NCBI GenBank assembly: GCA_020850775.1
Contig: JADZEA010000064.1
Span: 1-33,260 of the forward strand
Reading direction: 5' to 3'
Origin: a bacterium
GTDB taxonomy: Bacteria > CLD3
Length of the DNA stretch: 33,260 nucleotides
Below, in pieces: positions 6,010 through 28,190 of this stretch. The position numbers and the translations under genes were made by a program. The notes beneath the pieces are model-generated. The model was not told the origin of the DNA and ran no database searches. It worked only from the letters and a program-made list of their open reading frames with translations. Each line of letters starts with the position of its first letter. Positions within the stretch are counted from its first letter, which is position 1.

Positions 6010-6037
6010 TTGCAAAAAGTGTTGCAACCTGTTGCAA
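6010..6037 (+). promoter_or_regulatory. putative activator-binding array (three TTGCAA sites), operon 1
   Basis: TTGCAA occurs at 6010-6015, 6022-6027 and 6032-6037; the middle copy sits in a perfect GTTGCAAC palindrome. Spacings are 12 and 10 bases, about one helical turn each. The array lies about 85 bases before the -12 element of a sigma-54-like promoter, a usual position for an enhancer. The same three-site array, with spacings in mirrored order, precedes the cytochrome unit at 14028-14055. The inferred ligand is the activator encoded at 10660-12348. Confidence 0.7.
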
Positions 6038-6095
6038 GGTTTTGCTGGAAAAATCGCAAAAACCTTGTTCTAAAGCTACTTTCGGCTAAAAACAC

Positions 6096-6113
6096 TTGGT
6101 ACAGCTTTTGGAT
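6096..6113 (+). promoter_or_regulatory. sigma-54 promoter of the oxidoreductase operon
   Basis: TTGGTACAGCTTTTGGAT matches the sigma-54 form TGGCAC-N5-TTGC closely. GG at 6098-6099 is followed by exactly ten bases and GG at 6110-6111, where the consensus has GC. Predicted transcription would begin near 6122, giving a leader of about 25 bases before the ATG at 6148. This places the promoter inside an apparent upstream extension of the reading frame, which is therefore unlikely to be translated. Confidence 0.75.
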
Positions 6114-6147
6114 TAATCCTTTTGCAAAAATTGAAAGGATTAAAAAA

Positions 6148-6753
6148 ATGGAAACAAATTCTCACAAAAATTTAGTCAAAGAACTTGAAGTAGTTTCCCA
6201 ATTTTTTGCTGTCTTGTTTGAGTACCCAAACCCTGCAATTTTAAGTTACTTTACAAACGATAAAATTCTTGTAAAAGACCTTTGTAAAATCTCAAACACC
6301 GAGTTTCTTTCTTTTCGTTCACTAACTTACCGCGACCTTGAGATTGCTTACAATTCACTTTTTATCGTTGAGCCAACTAAAAACGGTGCTGTTCTTTACG
6401 AGTCTTACTACGCTTCCCCGGAAAAAATGCTCAACCAGGAGAGTTCCCGCCAAATCAAAAAATTAGTTGAAGCTGAAAATGGGTTTGTTTCTGAAAATTC
6501 TCCTGCTGACTACTTGCCTGTGATTTTGAGTTTGCTGAATCTTTACTGTGAAAAATTTCTTGAAACAAACGAGCAAAACTACTTTCATAAAATTGTTTTT
6601 TTGCTTGAGAACCACGTTTTCAACTGGATGGAAAAATTCACTTTTGATGTTTTGAGGCATTCAAATGTTTTTTACGGATTTATCGCAAACCTTTACTACA
6701 ACTACTTTCAACTTGTAAAATCAAACCTTGAAGAATTGAGGAAAATAAAATGA
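6148..6753 (+). CDS. TorD/DmsD-family molybdoenzyme maturation chaperone
   Basis: The protein has 201 residues, as is usual for this all-helical cytoplasmic family. Such proteins bind the Tat signal and apo-form of a molybdopterin enzyme until cofactor insertion and export. Family-like features are the central PADYLPVILSLLNLY segment (the equivalent of the usual P-x-DHL helix) and the C-terminal pattern WMEKF followed by FYGFIANLYYNYF. The frame is open back to 6007, but ATG at 6148 is preferred. It has GAAAGGAT at 6133-6140 in good position, and the sigma-54 promoter lies in the upstream part. The stop codon overlaps the ATG of the catalytic subunit (ATGA), which indicates coupled translation and that this is its client. 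Confidence 0.85.
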   Translation: METNSHKNLVKELEVVSQFFAVLFEYPNPAILSYFTNDKILVKDLCKISNTEFLSFRSLTYRDLEIAYNSLFIVEPTKNGAVLYESYYASPEKMLNQESSRQIKKLVEAENGFVSENSPADYLPVILSLLNLYCEKFLETNEQNYFHKIVFLLENHVFNWMEKFTFDVLRHSNVFYGFIANLYYNYFQLVKSNLEELRKIK

Positions 6754-8921
6754 AAAATTTATCAAGACGTGAATTTTTGAGAAGAACTTCACTTTCAGCT
6801 CTTGTTTTGGCTTTTGCTTCTTCGGGAATTCCTGTTTTGTTTTCTGAGGAAACAAAGATTGCAGCTACCACAAAAGGCAAAAAGTACGTTTACACTTCCT
6901 GTGAAATTTGCGTGAACAAGTGCGGATTAAAAGCTCACGTTGAAAACGGCAGAATTGTCAGACTTGAGCCAAACCCGCACTTTCCAAAAAGCCGCGGAAT
7001 GGTTTGTGCAAGAGGAAACGCTGGTGCAAGAGTTCCGTACTCTGCGGACAGATTAAAATTCCCGCTTGTTCGTGTCGGAGAACGCGGTGAAAACAAGTGG
7101 CGAAAAGCAAACTGGGACGAAGCACTGAAAATTGTTGGCGAAAATCTGAACAAAGTAGTTGAAACACAAAAAAACCGTTCTGCTGTAATGTTTGCTTCAA
7201 CCGAAGGTTTTCAGGAAGAATTTTTTAAGACTTTTGCTGAAGCCTTTGGTTCTTACAACGTTGTCAGGCATCCAACTCTCTGCTTAGCTTCAAACATTCA
7301 GGGCTTTTCAGCAGTTCTCGGAACTTATCCGGACGCAGACATCAAAAATGCAAACTACGTGATTTTTTGCGGAAGCAACAGGCTTGAAGCATTGATTACT
7401 CCGGATTCAATTGACCTTTTGAAAACCGGAAACAAAAAAATTGTTACTCTTGACCCGCGTTTTACAAAAACAGCCGCAAAATCAGGCGAGTGGTTACCAA
7501 TCAAAGTCGGAACCGATTTAGCCTTTGCACTTGCGATGATTAACGTTTTGATTAACGAGGAGCTTTACGACAAAAAATTTGTTGAAGAAAAAACTTTTGG
7601 TTTTGAAGAACTCAAAAACCACGTCAAAAATTACACTCCGGAATGGGCTGAAAAGGAAACGGAAATTCCTGCTGAAACCATCAGAAGAATTGCGACAGAG
7701 TTCGCTGAAAACGCACCAAAATCGGTTTACTATCCGGGAAGAAGGTCGTCTTTCAGTAAAAACGACGCAGAACTAAGGCGGGCAATTGCGATGGTTAATG
7801 CTTTGGTCGGGAATTTTAATGCGAAAGGCGGTCTCGTTCAATCTCTTTCAATTCCGCTAAAAAAAGTTGAGTTTGAACCGGTTTGGTACGACGACAACGC
7901 AGAAGAAAGGCTTGAAGCAGGAACAGTTCAGTTTTTGACTGAAAGTTCAGGAGCGTGGCTTCCTTTCAGAGACGCAGTTTTGAAAGGCGAACCTTACCCG
8001 GTTAAAGCGATGGTAACTTACAAAACGAATCCTGTTGCTTCTGTTCCGAACCGTAAAAAAACGCTTGAAATGATGAAAAAGATGGATTTTATCGCAGTGA
8101 TTGACACAGAAATGTCTGACACGGCTTACTTTGCAGACGTGATTTTACCTGAGTCAACTTACCTTGAAAGATGGGACCCGGCACACGTTTTGAGCGGAAT
8201 TGAACCTGTAGTAACTTTCAGGCAACCAGTAATTGAGCCACTTTACGACACAAAATCCTGCCTTGAAATTATGCAGGGATTAGTAAAAACTTGCGGGCTT
8301 GAGACAAATCCTTTTGATTACACAATCCAAAATTACATCAAAACGCAGGTTGAAAATTACGAAGGAGCTTACGAAAAATTGCTTGAAACAGCGGTTTTTA
8401 TTCCTGAAAATTTGCCAAATCCTTACGGCGAAAGACCAATCAAAACCCAAACCCAAAAAATTGAGTTTTACAGCGAAAAGTATCTTTCAAAGGGCTTAAA
8501 CCCAATGCCAACTTACGAAAAGCCAGGTGAAATCCCTGACGGAAAGTTTAAGTTCGTAGTTGGAAGGCACGCATTTTTTACACACAGTTCAACGAATTTG
8601 GATTACCTGAACACAATTATGAACCAAAATACTTTGTGGATTAACACGAAAGCGGCTGAAAGGCTTGGCATCAAAAACAACGATTTGGTGCTTGTAAAAT
8701 CAGCAGTTGGTGAAGGAAAACTCAATGCTTTTGTAACGGAAGGAATCAGACCCGACACAGTTTTTTTCATTCACGGTTTTGGCTCGGTTTCAAAAGGTCT
8801 GAGCAAAACTTACGGAGTTGGTGCTTCGGAATCGGAAATTCTTGAAGACCACTACGAACCAATTTCGGGGAATGCACTGTTACACGAAACGATTGTTCAA
8901 GTTGAGAAAGTGAGAGGATAA
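6750..8921 (+). CDS. psrA: molybdopterin oxidoreductase catalytic subunit, polysulfide/thiosulfate reductase (PsrA/PhsA) type
   Basis: This 723-residue member of the DMSO-reductase superfamily has a Tat signal (SRREFLRR at 5-12 plus a hydrophobic stretch), so it acts in the periplasm. A [4Fe-4S] site is formed by Cys51, Cys54, Cys58 and Cys86 (CX2CX3CX27C). The likely molybdenum ligand is Cys178, in HPTLCLASN, as in Psr/Phs and arsenate-reductase relatives rather than the serine or aspartate types. The C-terminal cofactor-binding domain is complete. It is close in length to PhsA/PsrA and much shorter than tetrathionate or selenate reductases. Expected role: reduction of a sulfur compound or similar oxyanion with electrons from the next two subunits. 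The substrate is an inference; arsenate or another acceptor cannot be excluded. Confidence 0.88.
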   Translation: MKNLSRREFLRRTSLSALVLAFASSGIPVLFSEETKIAATTKGKKYVYTSCEICVNKCGLKAHVENGRIVRLEPNPHFPKSRGMVCARGNAGARVPYSADRLKFPLVRVGERGENKWRKANWDEALKIVGENLNKVVETQKNRSAVMFASTEGFQEEFFKTFAEAFGSYNVVRHPTLCLASNIQGFSAVLGTYPDADIKNANYVIFCGSNRLEALITPDSIDLLKTGNKKIVTLDPRFTKTAAKSGEWLPIKVGTDLAFALAMINVLINEELYDKKFVEEKTFGFEELKNHVKNYTPEWAEKETEIPAETIRRIATEFAENAPKSVYYPGRRSSFSKNDAELRRAIAMVNALVGNFNAKGGLVQSLSIPLKKVEFEPVWYDDNAEERLEAGTVQFLTESSGAWLPFRDAVLKGEPYPVKAMVTYKTNPVASVPNRKKTLEMMKKMDFIAVIDTEMSDTAYFADVILPESTYLERWDPAHVLSGIEPVVTFRQPVIEPLYDTKSCLEIMQGLVKTCGLETNPFDYTIQNYIKTQVENYEGAYEKLLETAVFIPENLPNPYGERPIKTQTQKIEFYSEKYLSKGLNPMPTYEKPGEIPDGKFKFVVGRHAFFTHSSTNLDYLNTIMNQNTLWINTKAAERLGIKNNDLVLVKSAVGEGKLNAFVTEGIRPDTVFFIHGFGSVSKGLSKTYGVGASESEILEDHYEPISGNALLHETIVQVEKVRG

Positions 8922-8922
8922 A

Positions 8923-9477
8923 ATGGAAACTAAAAAAAAATACGTGATGGTGATTGACACTCAAAAATGTTTTGATTGCAAAGCCTGTACAATTGCCTGC
9001 AAGATGGAAAACAACGTCGCAGACAATTCACAGGAGTACCGAAACTGGGTTGAAACGGGAGAAATCTGCGGAACTTTTCCAAACTTAACGCAAAAATTTA
9101 TTCCCGGACAGTGTAACCACTGCACAAATGCTCCTTGTGAAAAAGTTTGCCCGACTTCTGCAACTTACAGAAACGAAGATGGATTGATAATGATTGACGC
9201 TGAAAAGTGCATTGTTTGTAAGTATTGTATGGTTGCCTGCCCTTACGACGCAAGGTTTGTTTCAACTACAAGGCACGTTGTTGACAAGTGTGATTTTTGT
9301 TACGACAGGATTAAAATTGGTGAACTTCCGGCTTGTGTACAAACTTGCCCACCAAAAACGAGGACTTTTGGAGACCTGAACGACCCAAATTCTGAAGTTT
9401 CAAAACTCTTGAAAAATCGTGAGTACAAAGTTCTTAAACCCGAAACAGGTGCAGAACCTAATGTTTTTTACCTTTAA
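8923..9477 (+). CDS. psrB: four-cluster ferredoxin electron-transfer subunit (PsrB/NrfC/DmsB type)
   Basis: The protein has 184 residues and sixteen cysteines in the four classic groups: CFDCKACTIACK (Cys16-26), CNHCTNAPCEKVCP, CIVCKYCMVACP, and CDFCYDR followed by CVQTCP. It therefore carries four [4Fe-4S] clusters that pass electrons between the membrane subunit and the molybdenum subunit. There is no signal peptide of its own; such subunits are exported by hitch-hiking on the Tat-bearing partner. It begins one base after the catalytic subunit's stop codon, preceded by GAGAGGAT as ribosome site. The length is normal and no cysteine is missing. Confidence 0.95.
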   Translation: METKKKYVMVIDTQKCFDCKACTIACKMENNVADNSQEYRNWVETGEICGTFPNLTQKFIPGQCNHCTNAPCEKVCPTSATYRNEDGLIMIDAEKCIVCKYCMVACPYDARFVSTTRHVVDKCDFCYDRIKIGELPACVQTCPPKTRTFGDLNDPNSEVSKLLKNREYKVLKPETGAEPNVFYL

Positions 9478-9496
9478 AATTTATGAGGAACAAAAG

Positions 9497-10609
9497 ATGT
9501 TGACTAAAAAAAATATAATTTACCTTTCAATTTTGTTTGCACTAACCGGAGTTTTTGCGGTTTTTGAAACTTACTACACGGGACGCGAAGAAAGTTTTAA
9601 CCTGACGCGGGAAGTTCCCTGGGGAATGCACATTGTTGGTTACATTTTTTTCGTAGCAATTTCTACGGGACTTTGTTTGATTGCTTCGCTTGGACACATT
9701 TTTAAGATTAAGGATTTTGACCAAATGGGAAAGCACTTGATTTTGCTTTCAATTGTTACGCTTTTTGCGGCGTTTTTTGTGATTGGTCTTGAGCTTGAGT
9801 ATCCGTTAAGGCTTGTGGTTTACAACGTTGTTTCGCCAAATTTTCACTCTCCGATGTGGTGGATGGGAACGCTTTACGGAGTTTACACTGTTCTTTTGAT
9901 TGCAGAGTTTTATTTTTTAAACAAAAAACAATTCAAACTTGCGGGGATTTTAGGTTTGATTGGAGTTGGTGCGGACATCGTGGCTCACGCGAACCTTGGA
10001 GCTTTGTTTTCGGTTGCGAGACCTTTTTGGAGCGGAGCATTTTTACCACCTTACTTTATCGTTTTAGCGGTTCAGTCCGGAGCTTCCGTGATGGTAATTT
10101 TTCTTACTCTAATCAAAAAACACAACAACCTTTCAATTGAAAGTTCAATCGTTGCTGCCGAAAGATTGATGGGAATTGCGATTGGAGTTTTGTTTTTGTT
10201 TCAAGCCTCAAGGATTTTGTCTTCAGCGATAATGTCAAGCCCTGATGTTTACCTTGCTGCGATGAGTTTGATTGCGGGACCGCTTGCATTTTATTTTTGG
10301 TTTGGCGAAGTTTTTTTGGGAATGATTTTGCCGGTTGTCCTTTTGGTGAAAGCTAAAAAATCAGGGAATTTTGGTTTGCTTGCTGCTTTTGCTTCAATCG
10401 CTGGAATGTTTTTTATGCGTTACAACCACGTTGTTGCAGGTCAGCTCGTCCCGATTCGCAAGTACTACAAGTTAGAAATGGCTGGAGATTACGTGATTTA
10501 CAGTCCTTCTTTGGTTGAAACGGCAACAATCGTCGGTGCTGTTGGTTTCACTTTTCTTTTTTACTACCTCGCTGAAAGGTATTTTAAAATGGAAAAAGAA
10601 ATTTCTTAA
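9497..10609 (+). CDS. nrfD: NrfD/PsrC-family quinol-oxidising membrane subunit
   Basis: The protein has 370 residues and about nine or ten hydrophobic helices, the form of the NrfD family that anchors Psr-type complexes and exchanges electrons with (mena)quinol. Supportive segments include REVPWGMHIVGYIFF near the start, a SPMWWMGTLYGVY loop and a late MRYNHVVAGQLVP loop. The frame is open back to 9419, inside the ferredoxin gene. The ATG at 9497 is preferred because GAGGA lies about eight bases upstream and because it places the first membrane helix at the N-terminus. It completes a chaperone-A-B-C set typical of anaerobic respiratory complexes. Confidence 0.92.
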   Translation: MLTKKNIIYLSILFALTGVFAVFETYYTGREESFNLTREVPWGMHIVGYIFFVAISTGLCLIASLGHIFKIKDFDQMGKHLILLSIVTLFAAFFVIGLELEYPLRLVVYNVVSPNFHSPMWWMGTLYGVYTVLLIAEFYFLNKKQFKLAGILGLIGVGADIVAHANLGALFSVARPFWSGAFLPPYFIVLAVQSGASVMVIFLTLIKKHNNLSIESSIVAAERLMGIAIGVLFLFQASRILSSAIMSSPDVYLAAMSLIAGPLAFYFWFGEVFLGMILPVVLLVKAKKSGNFGLLAAFASIAGMFFMRYNHVVAGQLVPIRKYYKLEMAGDYVIYSPSLVETATIVGAVGFTFLFYYLAERYFKMEKEIS

Positions 10610-10659
10610 AATCAATTTTTTGAGTAACTTTGGAGAGTAAAAAATTTAATCAGGGTAAA

Positions 10660-12348
10660 ATGACAAATCTTTCAGCAGACACGGTTCTTGAAATCCTGAA
10701 CAACTTATCGGGAATTATCATTGTTGCGACCGAACAAAGAAAAATTGTTTTTATCAACAAAGAAGGCGAAAAATATTTTAAGTGTAAACTTGAGAGCATT
10801 TTTGAAAAAAGCTGTTCGCTAATCATTAATCAGGAGTTCCACGAAACTTTTTGCCTTTTTGAAGAAGTTACCAAAACCGACGAAGTGCTTTACAAGTTCA
10901 ACGTAAACCTTTTGGGCGAGGCATTTTCGGTAACTGCTTTTAAAATCAGAACTAACGATAACAGAATTTTGATAGTTCATAATTTCAGGTTCGTGAACGA
11001 CCTTGTTTCGATGATTCGCAAAATTGAAACTGAACGCGACATTTTGCACACAAAATTTAACAACATCGTGAAAATTCTGGATAAACTCAACGAAGCATTT
11101 CTGCTTGTAAATTCAAAAGACGAAGTTTCCCTGATGAACCGCTACGCAGAAACCGCAACGGGAATTTCTAAAAAGCAGGTTTTGAACAAAAAATTTGCAA
11201 CTTTTCTTAACCTGCTAAACCTTGAAAATGGAAAAAACATTCTTCCGCTTCTCAAAGCAAAAGATGAAATTTCAGACCTGAAAGGCGATTTTGTCGATTC
11301 GCAGGGCAACAAACACAAAATTTTAATCAATGCTTTTTACATCTCTTCTGACGAAAAAAATTTTGATTACTTAGTAAACATTCGCGACGTTGAACGGATT
11401 GAAGGTCAGCTAAGGCTCAAAAGCGAAGGCGAACTAATCCCGGGTTTTATCGGAAAATCAAAATCAATCCTACAAATCGCAAACACGCTCCAAATGGTCA
11501 AAAACGGCGACACAACAATCTTAATACAAGGCGAAAGTGGAACGGGAAAAGAAGTCATCGCCCGCGGAATCCATCAAATTGGTGCAAGAAAAGACAAACC
11601 TTTCGTCGCCGTAAACTGTGCCGCAATCCCCGAACAACTGATGGAATCCGAACTTTTCGGACACGAAAAAGGCGCTTTCACAGGTGCTTTGGCACAAAAA
11701 ACCGGTAAGTTTGAGTTTGCAACACAAGGAACAATTTTTCTTGACGAAATCGGCGAAATGCCTTTGCACCTGCAAACAAAATTACTTAGAGTTTTGCAGG
11801 AAAAATCTTTTGAGCGAGTTGGAGGAAACAAACAAATCCCGACAAACGCCAGAATCATCGCTGCAACAAACAAAAATTTAGCTGAAGAAGTTGAGAACGG
11901 GAATTTTCGCAGAGACTTGTTTTTTCGCCTGAACGTAATTCCAATCAAACTTCCGCCTCTTCGTGAACGGAAAGAAGACATCAAACTTTTGATTGAAAAT
12001 TTTCTGCCGAAACTCAACAAAAAGTACAACAAAAACATCATCGGAATTGAAAAACAAACGATGGATTTTTTGCTGAACTACGCGTGGCAGGGAAACGTCA
12101 GGGAACTGATGAACGTCCTTGAGTACGGCGTGATTTGTTGTCAGGAAAACCAACTTGAGCAAAAATATTTTCAGGGCATTCTGAACTCAAACGAAACTAA
12201 AACTACAAACGAAAAATACTCTGACCTTGAACGTGAAAAAATTCTCTCAACGCTTGAAAAAAACAAAGGCTCAATCAGTGAAGCTGCAAAAAATCTTGAA
12301 ATGCACAGAAGCACGCTTTGGAGAAAAATGCAAAAGTATAAAATTTAA
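10660..12348 (+). CDS. sigma-54-dependent transcriptional activator with PAS sensor region
   Basis: The protein has 562 residues from the ATG at 10660 (CAGGG ribosome site); a TTG 30 bases earlier is possible but less likely. Two PAS-like regions (about 5-110 and 125-245) precede a complete AAA+ domain. That domain has Walker A GESGTGKE (291-298), the sigma-54 contact loop GAFTGA (338-343), Walker B GTIFLDE (357-363) and the arginine-rich FRRDLFFRLNV. A Fis-type helix-turn-helix closes it (about 530-562). There is no receiver domain, so it probably senses a cytoplasmic ligand or redox state through the PAS part rather than phosphorylation. It follows nrfD by 50 bases with no terminator, so it is likely part of the operon it controls, giving positive feedback. 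Predicted targets are the two TTGCAA arrays. Confidence 0.93.
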   Translation: MTNLSADTVLEILNNLSGIIIVATEQRKIVFINKEGEKYFKCKLESIFEKSCSLIINQEFHETFCLFEEVTKTDEVLYKFNVNLLGEAFSVTAFKIRTNDNRILIVHNFRFVNDLVSMIRKIETERDILHTKFNNIVKILDKLNEAFLLVNSKDEVSLMNRYAETATGISKKQVLNKKFATFLNLLNLENGKNILPLLKAKDEISDLKGDFVDSQGNKHKILINAFYISSDEKNFDYLVNIRDVERIEGQLRLKSEGELIPGFIGKSKSILQIANTLQMVKNGDTTILIQGESGTGKEVIARGIHQIGARKDKPFVAVNCAAIPEQLMESELFGHEKGAFTGALAQKTGKFEFATQGTIFLDEIGEMPLHLQTKLLRVLQEKSFERVGGNKQIPTNARIIAATNKNLAEEVENGNFRRDLFFRLNVIPIKLPPLRERKEDIKLLIENFLPKLNKKYNKNIIGIEKQTMDFLLNYAWQGNVRELMNVLEYGVICCQENQLEQKYFQGILNSNETKTTNEKYSDLEREKILSTLEKNKGSISEAAKNLEMHRSTLWRKMQKYKI

Positions 12349-12375
12349 ACAACTAAAAATTAAAGATTTAAGAAA

Positions 12376-12927
12376 ATGAACCTAAACGATTTGATTGCCT
12401 TTTCAGGGAGCTACTCCAAATTTTTAACCGTAGTTTTTGTTCTGACGCCTTTGTTCGCTTTTGTGTACGGAAAGGTTCACTCCAAAGGTAACGGGACAAA
12501 TTTTCCGCACAAGTTTGTGTACTCGTTTTTAGTTTACTTTACTTGTGTGCCGGGCATTTTTTCGTCTGTTCTGATTGTTTACTCAATTTTTTTCCTTAAG
12601 ACAAACCTCTTGCAGGTTAATTTTTTTGTTTACTTTTTGCCGGTACTTTCAATGATTTTCAGCCTTGCAATCATTAAAAAGAATGTTGAACTTGATTTTG
12701 TGCCTGGTTTTGACCGTTTGGTTGGCTTGTGCACTTTGCTTTCGATGACTTTTGCGGTTGTGTTTTTTCTTCTGAACACGAGGGTTTGGTTAGTTTTTGG
12801 CAGCTCGTTTTTGAGTTTGGTTTTGCTTGTAACTTTTGTGTTTTTGCTTTTGAAGTGGGGATTTTACACTTTTTTTCGTTCTAAAAATGAGCCGAAAATT
12901 AAGCCTCCGAAGTTTCCTGAACTCTAA
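12376..12927 (+). CDS. small multi-pass membrane protein of unknown function
   Basis: This 183-residue protein is strongly hydrophobic, with five or so membrane helices (around residues 17-32, 48-73, 80-98, 110-130 and 135-158). A basic, proline-containing tail follows (KNEPKIKPPKFPEL). I do not recognise a family and see no catalytic or metal-binding pattern. It starts 27 bases after the activator gene, in the same direction and without an intervening terminator, so it is probably the last gene of the respiratory operon. Its 3' end overlaps the convergent gene at 12924 by four bases. A role in the membrane part of the respiratory system is only an inference from position. Confidence 0.7.
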   Translation: MNLNDLIAFSGSYSKFLTVVFVLTPLFAFVYGKVHSKGNGTNFPHKFVYSFLVYFTCVPGIFSSVLIVYSIFFLKTNLLQVNFFVYFLPVLSMIFSLAIIKKNVELDFVPGFDRLVGLCTLLSMTFAVVFFLLNTRVWLVFGSSFLSLVLLVTFVFLLLKWGFYTFFRSKNEPKIKPPKFPEL

Positions 12928-13355
12928 TCTTTTTTGCGTTTGGAAAATTCAGGATAAAGTTTTTGGATGCACTGTGGACAAATTCCGTGAGAGAACTGAG
13001 CTTCAGAATGCTGACTGATGTAAGTTTCAATTTCGTTCCAGTAGCCTTCGTCGTTGCGGATTTTTTTGCAGCAGGAACAAATTGGGAGCAAGCCGCTTAA
13101 TCTTTTTACCTCTTTAAGTGTTTCCTGCAATTTTTCGTTGGAAATGAACAATTTTCTTTCGTAGCTCTCACTGATGCGGATAATTTTTACGATTTCTTTG
13201 AGCAGCGATTCGTAGTTTTTGGTTAGAAAATCATACTCGTGAAAAAGATACTCTAAGGTTAAGTCTCTGTTTTTCAGCAACTCTTTAGCTTGTTTCAGGG
13301 TGCTGAACTCACGTTCAAAGAGTTGATTATCGATTTCTTTTTTGCGTCTTACCAT
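12924..13355 (-). CDS. coiled-coil protein with stand-alone C-terminal Cys-rich module found on signalling proteins
   Basis: This 143-residue protein has no signal peptide or membrane segment. Residues about 1-88 are helical and charged, probably coiled coil. Residues about 88-138 hold LLPICSCCKKIRNDEGYW, then HSEAQFSHGICPQCIQKLYPE. From memory, this module (two cysteine pairs, a conserved tryptophan and histidines) is common at the C-terminus of response regulators and PAS/GAF proteins, where its function is unknown; a metal site is plausible. Here no receiver or PAS domain is attached. The start is supported by CAGG upstream. It is convergent with the respiratory operon and divergent from 13494. 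A small regulator or partner of the nearby signalling protein is possible but unproven. Confidence 0.75.
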   Translation of the reverse strand: MVRRKKEIDNQLFEREFSTLKQAKELLKNRDLTLEYLFHEYDFLTKNYESLLKEIVKIIRISESYERKLFISNEKLQETLKEVKRLSGLLPICSCCKKIRNDEGYWNEIETYISQHSEAQFSHGICPQCIQKLYPEFSKRKKD

Positions 13356-13417
13356 TTTTCAAACCTGATTTTTTCAGAAAAATAACTGATTAGTTCGGTA
13401 CTTCCTACTTCATTTTT

Positions 13418-13434
13418 TTGGCATAAACATTGGA
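13418..13434 (+). promoter_or_regulatory. sigma-54-like promoter of the small exported protein
   Basis: TTGGCATAAACATTGGA has GG at 13420-13421, ten bases, then GG at 13432-13433, with TTGGCA as a near-consensus -24 element. Transcription would begin near 13444, about 50 bases before the ATG at 13494. No TTGCAA array lies upstream in 13356-13418; the nearest is at 14028, downstream of the gene. Confidence 0.6.
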
Positions 13435-13493
13435 AACAATTTTTCTGCTTGTTTTAAGCAAAAGTTAAACCTTTAAAAATGGAGGAAACTAAA

Positions 13494-13967
13494 ATGAAAA
13501 GGTTTGTCTTTTTCGGAATTGTCGTTACAGTTCTGGTTGGTTCGCTGCTAATCACTTCTCAGGCACAGCCTTGGCGAGGTTGGAAAGGAAGTGGCGGCTG
13601 GGGTTGTAAATCCAACTATCAAAGAAATTACAATCCACAAAAAGTTGTTACCGTAAAAGGTAAGGTTCTTAAAGTTGAGGAAATCACTCCTGCAAGCGGA
13701 ATGGCTTACGGGATTCACCTTCTTTTCAAAACGGAAGCAGAAACTTTATCGGTTCACCTTGGACCTGTCTGGTTCGTTGAAAGACAAGATTTTGAAGTAA
13801 ACAAAAACGACGAACTTGAAATCAAAGGCTCAAAAATTACTCTTGACAACAGTAAGGTTTTGATTGCTTCAGAAGTTAAGAAAGGCGAAGACGAATTAAT
13901 TTTGAGAGATGAAAATGGTTTCCCTCTCTGGTCTGGTTTTGGTCGCAGAGGAAGATTGTTCAAGTAA
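13494..13967 (+). CDS. small exported protein, single beta-rich domain
   Basis: The protein has 157 residues. The ATG at 13494 is preferred over one at 13479 because GGAGGA (13481-13486) lies between them. A signal peptide (MKRFVFFGIVVTVLVGSLLITSQAQ) is followed by a Trp/Gly-rich stretch and a compact beta domain (about 50-135). That domain contains VVTVKGKVLKVEEITP, GIHLLFKTEAETLSVHLGPVW and DELEIKGSKI, then a tail LRDENGFPLWSGF. I recall similar small periplasmic proteins with an OB-fold-like domain, some compared to magnetosome MamS, near redox genes; that link is weak. The location between two sigma-54 respiratory units and its own sigma-54-like promoter suggest it serves the same pathway. 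A strong terminator follows it. Confidence 0.8.
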   Translation: MKRFVFFGIVVTVLVGSLLITSQAQPWRGWKGSGGWGCKSNYQRNYNPQKVVTVKGKVLKVEEITPASGMAYGIHLLFKTEAETLSVHLGPVWFVERQDFEVNKNDELEIKGSKITLDNSKVLIASEVKKGEDELILRDENGFPLWSGFGRRGRLFK

Positions 13968-13985
13968 TTTTTTATTTCTTTTAAC

Positions 13986-14022
13986 AAAAGCCTGAAAGGA
14001 GCAGAACTCGTTTCAGGCTTTT
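13986..14022 (+). terminator. rho-independent terminator
   Basis: AAAAGCCTGAAA (13986-13997) pairs perfectly with TTTCAGGCTTTT (14011-14022) and runs into a T-rich tract. It closes the 13494 gene and isolates the enhancer-like array that begins six bases later. Confidence 0.88.
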
Positions 14023-14027
14023 TTGTT

Positions 14028-14055
14028 TTGCAACACTTTGCAACAAGCGTTGCAA
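14028..14055 (+). promoter_or_regulatory. putative activator-binding array (three TTGCAA sites), cytochrome-barrel operon
   Basis: TTGCAA occurs at 14028-14033, 14038-14043 and 14050-14055, with spacings of 10 and 12 bases. That is the mirror order of the array at 6010-6037 (12 then 10). The array lies about 100 bases before the -12 element of the following sigma-54 promoter. The shared site and shared distance suggest one activator for both units. Confidence 0.7.
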
Positions 14056-14126
14056 TCCGTCCTGCTCTTCTCTAAATTTTTTCCTGAAAATCCTGCTTGG
14101 AATATTCTTAAAAGCCATTTTTGTGT

Positions 14127-14143
14127 TTGGTACAGGCTTTGAC
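14127..14143 (+). promoter_or_regulatory. sigma-54 promoter of the cytochrome-barrel operon
   Basis: TTGGTACAGGCTTTGAC has GG at 14129-14130, ten bases, then GA at 14141-14142. Its -24 half (TTGGTACAG) is identical to that of the oxidoreductase operon, while the -12 half is weaker. Predicted start of transcription is near 14153, about 27 bases before the ATG at 14180. Confidence 0.68.
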
Positions 14144-14179
14144 TTAATCTTTATCAAATAAAATTTGGAGGTAAAAAAA

Positions 14180-14536
14180 ATGTGTAGTTCAAGATTTTTA
14201 GCAGCTTTAACGATTGGTTTTTTGGGAGTTTTTTCTCTGACCGGTGCAGAAGCGGCAGACAACGCAAAAAAAGGCAAGTTCCTTTACAAAACTTCCTGCA
14301 GGTTAGCTTGCCACGAAGGAAAAACCGACGGAGCAAAAGAGCTAAACCCAACTTCAAAAACAAAAGCTCAGTGGGAAAGTTTTTTTAAAGACGGAAACAA
14401 AAAACTCCTTAAAGTTCACGGAAAAAAAGAGCTTGAAAAAGTTCAAAATGAATTTAAAGAACAGGATTACAAAGACATTTTAAAATATTTGTACGAACAC
14501 GCTTCCGATTCCGACCAACCACAAACTTGTGGCTAA
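14180..14536 (+). CDS. small exported cytochrome c-like protein with CX3CH haem motif
   Basis: The protein has 118 residues from the ATG at 14180, which follows GGAGGT (14167-14172); a TTG at 14165 falls inside that ribosome site and is rejected. The signal peptide ends near residue 25 (LTGAEAA). The mature part contains a single haem-attachment-like motif, CRLACH, with three residues between the cysteines instead of the usual two. After it comes a helical region (SKTKAQWESFFKD) and a C-terminal helix (YKDILKYLYEHA) like the last helix of class I cytochromes. A final CG pair ends the protein. No clear distal Met ligand is visible. As a periplasmic electron carrier it could link the NrfD-type complex or quinol pool to another partner. 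It is co-transcribed with the barrel 38 bases downstream. Confidence 0.8.
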   Translation: MCSSRFLAALTIGFLGVFSLTGAEAADNAKKGKFLYKTSCRLACHEGKTDGAKELNPTSKTKAQWESFFKDGNKKLLKVHGKKELEKVQNEFKEQDYKDILKYLYEHASDSDQPQTCG

Positions 14537-14574
14537 ACTTGTCTTTTTAAACTAAAAACTAACGAGGTAAAAAA

Positions 14575-16347
14575 ATGAAAACTTTATTTTTAACAATGGT
14601 TTTGTCTTCGGCATTGGTTTCCAACGTTTTTGCTGAAGACGAAGAACTAAAAGAAGAAGTGAAAAGCCTTGACGAGAGGCTTTCAAAAGTTGAAGTGAAA
14701 ACTGCAAACGACAGAGTGAACTTTAACATTGATTTTAGAACGAGGTACGATTACATCAACTACGACGGAATGCAAAGCCTTCCTGAATGGGCTCAAATGA
14801 TGATGGCTTTGTGGTCTTTTGACAGATTAGCCGTAGCAGGAACACAGCAACAAGGTGCGTTAAACGATGGTGATTATATTTTTAACCCAAATTTTATGGC
14901 AAAGTACGGAACGATTTTGCAACCGATGATGCCAAACATGGTTGCCGCAGGTTTTGTAACAGCTAACGAACTTGGAATGTACAAAATCAACACCAACGAA
15001 CTTGGAAAACCTTACTTCAGCGATACTTTTACGGCAACGGATTTGGCAAAGTATCAAATGCTTTTTTCGGGAATTGCACCTGAAAAATACAACAAAAAAA
15101 ACAAGGCTTTGTGGACGAACCGTTTGAAACTTGGTTTTGATTCAAAAGTTGACGAGCATCTTTCTTTTGCCGGAAGGCTTTCAATGTACAAAGCGTGGGG
15201 CGACGCAACAGGTTACAGGTGGTTTAATGGCTCAATGAGTTCTGTAAACATGGATGGAAACGACGCTTCAATCCCAACAGACGACAAAGTCAGAGTTGAC
15301 AGAGCTTACTTTGTTTACTCAAACAAGGTTTACAACACGGATTACCACTGGCATTTTTCTTTCGGAAGAAGACCGGCAACAGCAGGAATGCCAAACCAAA
15401 ACCGTGAAAACTGGAACGTTGCAACAGGCTCACCACTAATCCACATCATTAACTGGCAGTTTGACGGAGCTTCGTTAGGCTTAAACTTTGGCGAAGATTT
15501 TATCGTTCCGGGACACGCAATCAAACTTTGTTACGGAAAAGGTTACGAAGGTGGTTGGGGAAATTCAGCTTCTTACAGTGCTGCAGACACAAAAGACGTA
15601 GAAATGATGGGATTCATCTGGACACTTTTTGACAACTCAACTTACAAATTAACAACTAACTACGCTTACGGAGACGGAATCACGGATGGATTTACAGGAG
15701 TTGTGATTACACCTTTTACAATCAACGGGCTTGACATCAACAGCGACGGAAATTACGACGAGTACTACTTTACAGCTAACGACGGCGGCTACATTTCAAG
15801 GTTTGAAGCAAGGTCAAAAATCGGAAACATGCACCTTGGAACACTTTTGGCACAGTACGAAGGCGAACATCTCAATGCTTTTGTTTCTTACGCATTTTCT
15901 AAAACAATCGCCGACGGAAAATCAATGAATGCAATGATGCAATTTATGGGAACTGACGGACTTCTAAATTCTTTTGGAACACAAAAAGACAGAAGCGGAA
16001 ACTCACTCTACGCAGGAATTATTGGAAAAATCGGCGAACACAGAATTGGTTTTGAGTACAACCAAGGCTCAAAATACTGGTTTAATTTTTCCGGTGCCGA
16101 AGATTCTCCAATTGCAAGTAAGTTAGCAGTCAGAGGAAAAGTTTACGAAGGTTACTGGCACATTCCAATCCACACAAACAGATTTTTTATGACAATTGCA
16201 GGAACTTACTACGATTACGATTACACAGGTTCGGGAAACCCAATGGGCGAGCCAAAGAAAATTTCACAACTTAACGGGCTTGACTCATTAATGCCTGTTG
16301 TTGACAAAGTTTACAACTTTAGTGTCGGGCTAAGTTACCGCTACTAA
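14575..16347 (+). CDS. outer-membrane beta-barrel protein, DUF3373-like
   Basis: This 590-residue protein has a signal peptide ending VFA at residue 20. A short acidic coiled coil follows (about 21-45, EELKEEVKSLDERLSKVE). The rest is a long barrel of amphipathic beta strands (FNIDFRTRYDYI at the start) ending in an aromatic strand (FSVGLSYRY). The pattern resembles DUF3373 outer-membrane proteins, which I recall from several groups of anaerobic respirers; their transport role is unproven. The gene shares a sigma-54-driven transcript with the CX3CH cytochrome, so it may admit the substrate or product of the respiratory enzyme, or dock an electron carrier. The ribosome site is GAGGT. A strong hairpin follows the stop codon. 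Confidence 0.85.
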   Translation: MKTLFLTMVLSSALVSNVFAEDEELKEEVKSLDERLSKVEVKTANDRVNFNIDFRTRYDYINYDGMQSLPEWAQMMMALWSFDRLAVAGTQQQGALNDGDYIFNPNFMAKYGTILQPMMPNMVAAGFVTANELGMYKINTNELGKPYFSDTFTATDLAKYQMLFSGIAPEKYNKKNKALWTNRLKLGFDSKVDEHLSFAGRLSMYKAWGDATGYRWFNGSMSSVNMDGNDASIPTDDKVRVDRAYFVYSNKVYNTDYHWHFSFGRRPATAGMPNQNRENWNVATGSPLIHIINWQFDGASLGLNFGEDFIVPGHAIKLCYGKGYEGGWGNSASYSAADTKDVEMMGFIWTLFDNSTYKLTTNYAYGDGITDGFTGVVITPFTINGLDINSDGNYDEYYFTANDGGYISRFEARSKIGNMHLGTLLAQYEGEHLNAFVSYAFSKTIADGKSMNAMMQFMGTDGLLNSFGTQKDRSGNSLYAGIIGKIGEHRIGFEYNQGSKYWFNFSGAEDSPIASKLAVRGKVYEGYWHIPIHTNRFFMTIAGTYYDYDYTGSGNPMGEPKKISQLNGLDSLMPVVDKVYNFSVGLSYRY

Positions 16348-28173: not shown

Positions 28174-28190
28174 TGGCACGTTTGTTGGCA
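28174..28190 (+). promoter_or_regulatory. sigma-54 promoter of the LamG-domain protein
   Basis: TGTGGCACGTTTGTTGGC contains the exact -24 consensus TGGCACG (GG at 28175-28176), ten bases, then GG at 28187-28188. Transcription would start near 28199, about 40 bases before the ATG at 28238. Confidence 0.68.

Follow-up and report, generated by a model that had tools for sequence, protein, structure and literature searches.

Polysulfide reductase (Psr) and thiosulfate reductase (Phs) enzymes, PsrABC and PhsABC (Thermus 2vpw-2vpz; Wolinella; Salmonella Phs), combine a molybdenum bis(pyranopterin guanine dinucleotide) subunit, which carries a twin-arginine translocation (Tat) signal and a cysteine ligand to molybdenum (Mo), with a Fer4 and an NrfD subunit. 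Sulfur transport is experimentally unassigned (PMC10045233), and a porin and a rhodanese that feed polysulfide to Psr or Ttr have been proposed (PMC6896113, PMC11896075, PMC10045233). In Shewanella, SO_4142 is a periplasmic monoheme cytochrome c without an assigned role and SO_4144 is the octaheme tetrathionate reductase (OTR) (PMC5789149, PMC5955497). Here, we describe two operons on a 33,260-nucleotide stretch of contig JADZEA010000064.1 (the window) in the bacterial assembly GCA_020850775.1 (GTDB lineage CLD3). One encodes a Psr-like enzyme and a sigma-54 activator, and the other a small exported cytochrome-like protein and a DUF3373 outer-membrane barrel. Sequence comparison with a relative makes it well supported that the two form a sigma-54 regulon, and we consider it probable that the whole arrangement, including activator, porin and acceptor, serves one anaerobic respiratory chain. 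The parts are known and their combination is new.

Both operons have the same control layout, a triple array of TTGCAA sites followed by a promoter of the -24/-12 type, at the places given in a preliminary description of the window. All features of the two units lie on the plus strand. Array 1 (TTGCAA-N6-TTGCAA-N4-TTGCAA; 6010-6037, sites at 6010, 6022 and 6032) precedes the putative promoter of the enzyme operon, TGGTACAGCTTTTGGA (6097-6112; GG-N10-GG), and array 2 (TTGCAA-N4-TTGCAA-N6-TTGCAA; 14028-14055, sites at 14028, 14038 and 14050) precedes that of the cytochrome-barrel operon, TGGTACAGGCTTTGAC (14128-14143; GG-N10-GA). The arrays, which are proposed to be activator binding sites, are mirror images of each other (gaps of 6 and 4 versus 4 and 6), and their first sites lie 87 and 100 bases, respectively, from the promoters. 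For TTGCAA-N2-8-TTGCAA-N2-8-TTGCAA, the window has two matches where 0.01 would be expected, and none of 100 shuffles reached two. Single TTGCAA words are mildly in excess (45 versus 34); hence, the signal is the clustering of the sites. TGG[CT]AC-N5-TTG occurs just 3 times in the whole window, and the site upstream of the cytochrome gene scores at p=0.013. Compared with TGGCAC-N5-TTGCW, the promoters have a good -24 element and GG, GA or GT at -12, where the consensus has GC. A looser promoter search of the window, with two mismatches, was not significant alone, and the case therefore rests on combination and conservation. Apart from the two operons, a third sigma-54-like site without a TTGCAA array, TGGCACGTTTGTTG (28174-28187), stands just before the gene for a Laminin_G_3 protein (28199).

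The layout is unique in the genome. Scanning all 3.09 Mb (265 contigs) for TTGCAA-N50-80-TGGYAC-N5-TTG returned the two window promoters and one site within an amidase open reading frame (ORF), C106:15043, which was rejected as a further regulon site. The idea that the regulon is self-contained is supported genome-wide as regards promoters. TTGCAA-N6-TTGCAA pairs are enriched in this genome (15 of 38), and a larger regulon built on them was also rejected: of 13 pairs examined outside the window, 12 lie within ORFs and 1 is unassigned at a contig end, and no sigma-54 site was found near any of the 11 checked. We take the enrichment as a coding-frame effect.

The strongest evidence comes from G001, the only same-family genome compared, in which the enzyme, activator and cytochrome-barrel units lie on three separate contigs. 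Its enzyme operon (TorD-Mo-FeS-NrfD; contig C24) has the same gene order without the activator and a Mo subunit that matches that of the window at 77%; the activator orthologue (69%) is on C36, and the cytochrome and barrel (56% and 74%) are on C46. Upstream of the G001 cytochrome, TTGCAACAAAATGCAACTTCGAGTTGCAA is followed after 69 bases by TGGCACTCTGTTTGTC, with array 2 kept at L040:13549-13577 and the promoter at L040:13647 (p=0.003). Upstream of TorD, TTGCAACTTCTTGCAA is followed after 61 bases by TGGTACAAGTTTTGAATTAATC; a two-site version of array 1 lies at L101:6556-6571 and the orthologous promoter, TGGTACAAGTTTTGAA, at L101:6633. All four promoters align. That unlinked loci have this control layout in common is strong evidence for a regulon, and the two-operon proposal stood up well here. 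Besides both orthologous promoters, the same scan of G001 returned a single intergenic site, which precedes a gene of HD-type look (C52:558). There, at C52:558-651 (L136), TTGCAA accompanies a good sigma-54-like site, possibly marking a third regulon member in G001.

The activator gene of the enzyme operon (10660-12348; alternative TTG start at 10630) encodes a PAS-AAA+-Fis-type helix-turn-helix (HTH) protein (PF00158, 4.3e-72; PF00989; PF02954), and the Sigma54_activat AAA+ domain with GAFTGA together with the Fis-type HTH places it in the NtrC family. The window genome encodes 23 strong sigma-54 activators, and it and G001 have one sigma-54 gene (rpoN) each. The recognition helix, MHR[ST]TLWRK, is nearly identical in the window and G001, where the sites are TTGCAA. 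In two more distant loci, L124 (Polarisedimenticola) and L127, a two-PAS sigma-54 activator with the helix SRTTLWR is encoded just upstream of a cytochrome-barrel-enzyme cluster and has its own site array and promoter. Outside this lineage, the sigma-54 sites before the cytochrome score best at these loci and at L114 (p=0.003, 0.023 and 0.023 for L124, L127 and L114). Just these three are enriched in the words TGAAAC/GTTTCA (p<0.001, 0.0005 and 0.004), so that in three other lineages the cytochrome-barrel operon has the layout of the window with a different site, which adds to the support for the regulon. It is suggestive that the helix difference appears to track the site difference. The regions upstream of TorD or the cytochrome in Deferribacterota contain no convincing sigma-54 site, and so sigma-54 control is not universal. 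Cysteines C42, C52 and C65 of the activator PAS region (numbered in the ATG-started protein) are kept in G001, and the third aligns with a cysteine in the L124 and L127 activators; it is possible that these N-terminal cysteines form a redox or sulfur sensor.

Pfam confirmed the enzyme operon as first described, with genes for a TorD-family chaperone for the Mo enzyme (6148-6753; PF02613, 4.8e-16), a Psr/Phs-like molybdopterin catalytic subunit (6750-8921; PF00384/PF04879/PF01568), a 4Fe-4S electron-transfer subunit (Fer4; 8923-9477; PF13247, 2.4e-26), an NrfD-type membrane subunit (9497-10609; PF03916, 2.7e-27), which from its family would give the quinol connection, and the PAS-AAA-HTH_8 activator. 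The start codons are probably ATG 6148 for the chaperone, 9497 for NrfD, 10660 for the activator and 14180 for the cytochrome. The catalytic subunit matches Thermus polysulfide reductase (2vpw) at 1.5e-118, the next family at 1.5e-57 and ArrA far below; it has a Tat leader (SRREFLRRT), and its Mo-ligand cysteine aligns (HPTLCLAS with SVSLCTAP). The best NCBIfam model is the thiosulfate reductase PhsA, with a score under the cut-off of that model. In the tree, a 14-row Psr-like clade at 100/100 includes the window, G001, seven Deferribacterota enzymes, L127, L124 and G031, and Thermus PsrA lies outside it in another 100/100 group. The enzyme is not within the clade of characterized PsrA, and we class it as Psr-like only. 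Every clade member examined has the cytochrome-like protein and all but G031 have the barrel, which agrees with the expectation that true orthologues would not occur without the cytochrome-barrel unit; G031 has a cytochrome b561-type gene in place of NrfD. A Terriglobia enzyme (L129) adjoins a cytochrome and barrel and groups with Thermus; hence, the pairing of enzyme and cytochrome-barrel arose more than once.

The barrel gene (14575-16347; PF11853, 1e-119) encodes a predicted 16-strand porin with an N-terminal coiled coil. An AlphaFold2 model from 20 sequences (mean predicted local distance difference test, 72) combines about 16 long strands with a coiled-coil-like helix at the N terminus, and its best Foldseek matches in the PDB are general porins (OmpF family, PorB, VhChiP and OmpM1; 8e-11), mostly of 16 strands, with modest template modeling scores of 0.3 to 0.4 on the query. 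The protein thus models as a 16-strand general porin and not as an electron conduit, which fits the earlier suggestion that it is a pore for the acceptor. We found no functional paper on DUF3373, as judged by titles and abstracts.

The pair of cytochrome and barrel recurs widely. While a search with the single barrel sequence gave no match, a profile from the barrel alignment retrieved 22 loci from GTDB genomes, and in 18 of them, one being the Shewanella inventionis copy with an in-frame stop, the small exported cytochrome is encoded directly upstream. The gene after the barrel encodes a Psr-like Mo enzyme in L116, L119, L124, L127, L129 and L134, an octaheme tetrathionate reductase homologue in L114, L121, L122, L123, L125, L126, L128, L130, L131 and L133 (L121 matches 1sp3 at 5e-266), and another multiheme protein in L117, L118 and L120. 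According to a second search, most Deferribacterota have one barrel, mostly as TorD-cytochrome-barrel; six fetched loci also contain Mo-FeS-NrfD-triple rhodanese genes, often plus flavocytochrome c, and several thermophilic members have TorD-cytochrome-barrel without an adjoining enzyme. The grouping of enzyme, cytochrome and barrel therefore recurs in other lineages, and judging from these neighborhoods the pair appears to be an exchangeable porin/small-protein cassette for periplasmic reductases, found in several phyla with two unrelated kinds of reductase. The preliminary description knew of no account of the combination. We likewise found no description of the cassette or the regulon in the literature open without subscription, nor a published sigma-54 polysulfide regulon or work on SO_4143; the combination is a recurring module that other genomes have as well. 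The S. inventionis cytochrome gene (L121, about 9515-9853), upstream of the octaheme reductase operon, has an in-frame stop that reflects either a disrupted gene or a sequencing error.

The small protein (14180-14536) has a CX3CH motif (CRLACH) and ends in DSDQPQTCG; its Pfam match to c-type cytochromes is marginal. A search of solved structures gave weak class I matches only, and Foldseek matches were not significant. Among 36 family members, with the disrupted S. inventionis row left out, 16 have CX2CH, 15 have CX3CH (13 Deferribacterota plus the two genomes from this lineage) and 5 have no heme motif. A TPM methionine, likely the distal ligand, occurs in 13 of the 16 CX2CH members (a scripted count of 14 includes a chance match farther upstream in L103), and every CX3CH or motif-less member lacks it. 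The protein thus differs from class I cytochromes c, which have CXXCH and a distal methionine. The residues C44, W65, A108, D110, S111, P114 and C117 (window numbering) are invariant in 36/36, including the cysteine of the C-terminal DSxQPxTCG, and the second heme cysteine is also kept. Because the C-terminal cysteine is invariant and the heme motif variable, the C-terminal motif and not the heme is the constant feature. In L174, L175, L176, L182 and L204, from two genera of Deferribacterota, RYHTxCADG replaces the heme motif, with neither CXXCH nor CX3CH, and the signal peptide and the DHAADSDQPETCG end are kept; the motif-less protein is the only homologue found in each of these five genomes. 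The idea that the cytochrome links the two units lost ground, as NrfD already offers a quinol connection and the heme motif is lost in five relatives.

We propose that the activator, with its PAS domain, senses a redox or ligand signal and, bound to the phased TTGCAA sites about 60 to 75 bases upstream, drives transcription by sigma-54 RNA polymerase from both -24/-12 promoters. Operon 1 would then supply a periplasmic, quinol-linked Psr-like Mo/Fe-S/NrfD reductase, its chaperone and the activator, and operon 2 a DUF3373 barrel of the general-porin type that admits the acceptor and the small exported protein. The latter would act alongside the enzyme on the periplasmic side, carrying electrons or, via its invariant C-terminal cysteine, serving as a carrier or adapter for the acceptor. 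We infer binding by this activator, co-induction, the porin substrate, the acceptor and the role of the small protein, including its action as a sulfur carrier or adapter. A further idea is tentative, and we rather doubt it: the small protein could be the core of the exchangeable cassette, binding the acceptor (e.g., as a persulfide on the invariant C-terminal cysteine) or passing it to the resident reductase, be it the Mo enzyme or the octaheme type, with the heme secondary, loosened (CX2CH to CX3CH, methionine lost) and finally lost in one Deferribacterota lineage.

Among acceptors, sulfane-sulfur compounds (e.g., polysulfide, thiosulfate or a polythionate) are the likeliest. The triple-rhodanese and flavocytochrome c genes in Deferribacterota clusters point to sulfur compounds, as does the octaheme tetrathionate reductase as the alternative partner of the cassette. 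Sulfur disproportionation induces the Desulfurivibrio Psr operon, which includes a gene for a triple-rhodanese sulfurtransferase (PMC12142623). Several points weigh against the proposed chain. The -12 elements are GG, GA or GT and not the consensus GC. The activator is one of 23 and is unlinked in G001, so that the case for its cognacy is its linkage in the window, L124 and L127; the assumption that the neighboring activator is the right one is weakened accordingly. Most Deferribacterota have psr clusters and few reduce elemental sulfur (PMC6896113), the enzyme clade lies apart from Thermus PsrA, and a search for the triple rhodanese in G000 and G001, made without a positive control, gave no match; for these reasons the acceptor may differ.

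Could the likeness of the two promoters be chance, with no regulon behind it? This AT-rich genome contains TTGCAA fairly often, but shuffled sequences never reach two triple arrays, the array-plus-promoter layout is unique genome-wide and it is conserved at unlinked orthologous loci in G001, so that we regard chance as extremely improbable. That the arrays are bound by another sigma-54 activator, and that the operon-borne one controls something else, is unlikely but deserves more weight: the genome has 23 strong activators, and in G001 the activator gene is unlinked and has no upstream TTGCAA array of its own. Against this stand the 69% conservation of the activator and its nearly identical helix where the sites are TTGCAA, and the related adjacent activators of L124 and L127, in which another helix accompanies TGAAAC/GTTTCA arrays instead.

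A minor but appreciable possibility, the least unlikely of these alternatives, is that the same architecture serves an acceptor other than a sulfur compound (e.g., arsenate, selenate, nitrite or an organic N/S-oxide), consistent with the separate enzyme clade. In vitro, nitrite too is a substrate of octaheme tetrathionate reductase. The nitrite use suggested for it, and the inability of most Deferribacterota with psr clusters to reduce sulfur (PMC6896113), point the same way, but polysulfide reductase is the nearest solved structure by a wide margin, with ArrA far below, the best NCBIfam model is PhsA, though under its cut-off, and the rhodanese and flavocytochrome c neighbors favor sulfur. 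An extracellular electron conduit, with the acceptor reduced outside the cell, might be suspected from a heme protein that is encoded beside a barrel nearly everywhere and recalls porin-cytochrome systems. MtrAB-type conduits have a multiheme cytochrome in a barrel of 26 to 28 strands; here, the modeled barrel resembles a general porin of 16 strands and not the large MtrB type, the small protein has one heme motif at most and none in five genomes, and its partner reductases work in the periplasm, which makes a conduit very unlikely. We thus favor the sigma-54 regulon for a periplasmic, probably sulfur-linked chain.

Of the three small genes that separate the two units (12376-13967), no trace was found at the three G001 loci, and their membership in the regulon is unsupported. 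One of them (13479-13967), absent from the G001 loci, encodes an exported protein weakly like the magnetosome protein MamS (NCBIfam, 4e-4, far under the cut-off). On the minus strand, at 12924-13355 and convergent with the gene after the activator, a 143-residue protein with CSCCKKIR...CPQC belongs to no Pfam family.

If our proposal is correct, DUF3373 gains a first testable role as an outer-membrane pore dedicated to periplasmic reductases, at acceptor entry, a step of sulfur respiration that is still experimentally unassigned. One partner pair would connect octaheme tetrathionate reductase and Psr-like enzymes, a small sigma-54 regulon is defined in an uncultured lineage with DNA sites testable in vitro, and one protein family offers a natural series of heme-motif loss.

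Among described systems, the porins proposed for Deferribacter and Deferrivibrio (phosphate-selective type) and Sulfurovum (OprD type) would, together with a rhodanese, supply polysulfide to Psr or Ttr, but they belong to other families, without mention of DUF3373 or a common sigma-54 control. The Shewanella octaheme tetrathionate reductase locus (1sp3) resembles the window in having a cytochrome with the same C-terminal motif and a DUF3373 barrel directly upstream (L121), and from the S. inventionis locus SO_4143 would be this barrel; it differs in its unrelated octaheme reductase and its CX2CH small protein, and no sigma-54 promoter was found upstream. PAS-bearing NtrC-family activators such as PrdR-like proteins have the same PAS-AAA+(GAFTGA)-Fis HTH order and several upstream dyads; PrdR is the best named model, yet far under its cut-off (388 versus 795 bits), and the window targets are respiratory operons. 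Unlike PsrABC and PhsABC, with which it has its subunits, Tat signal and Mo-ligand cysteine in common, the window enzyme belongs to a separate, fully supported clade and is linked to sigma-54 control as well as to TorD, the cytochrome-like protein and the DUF3373 porin.

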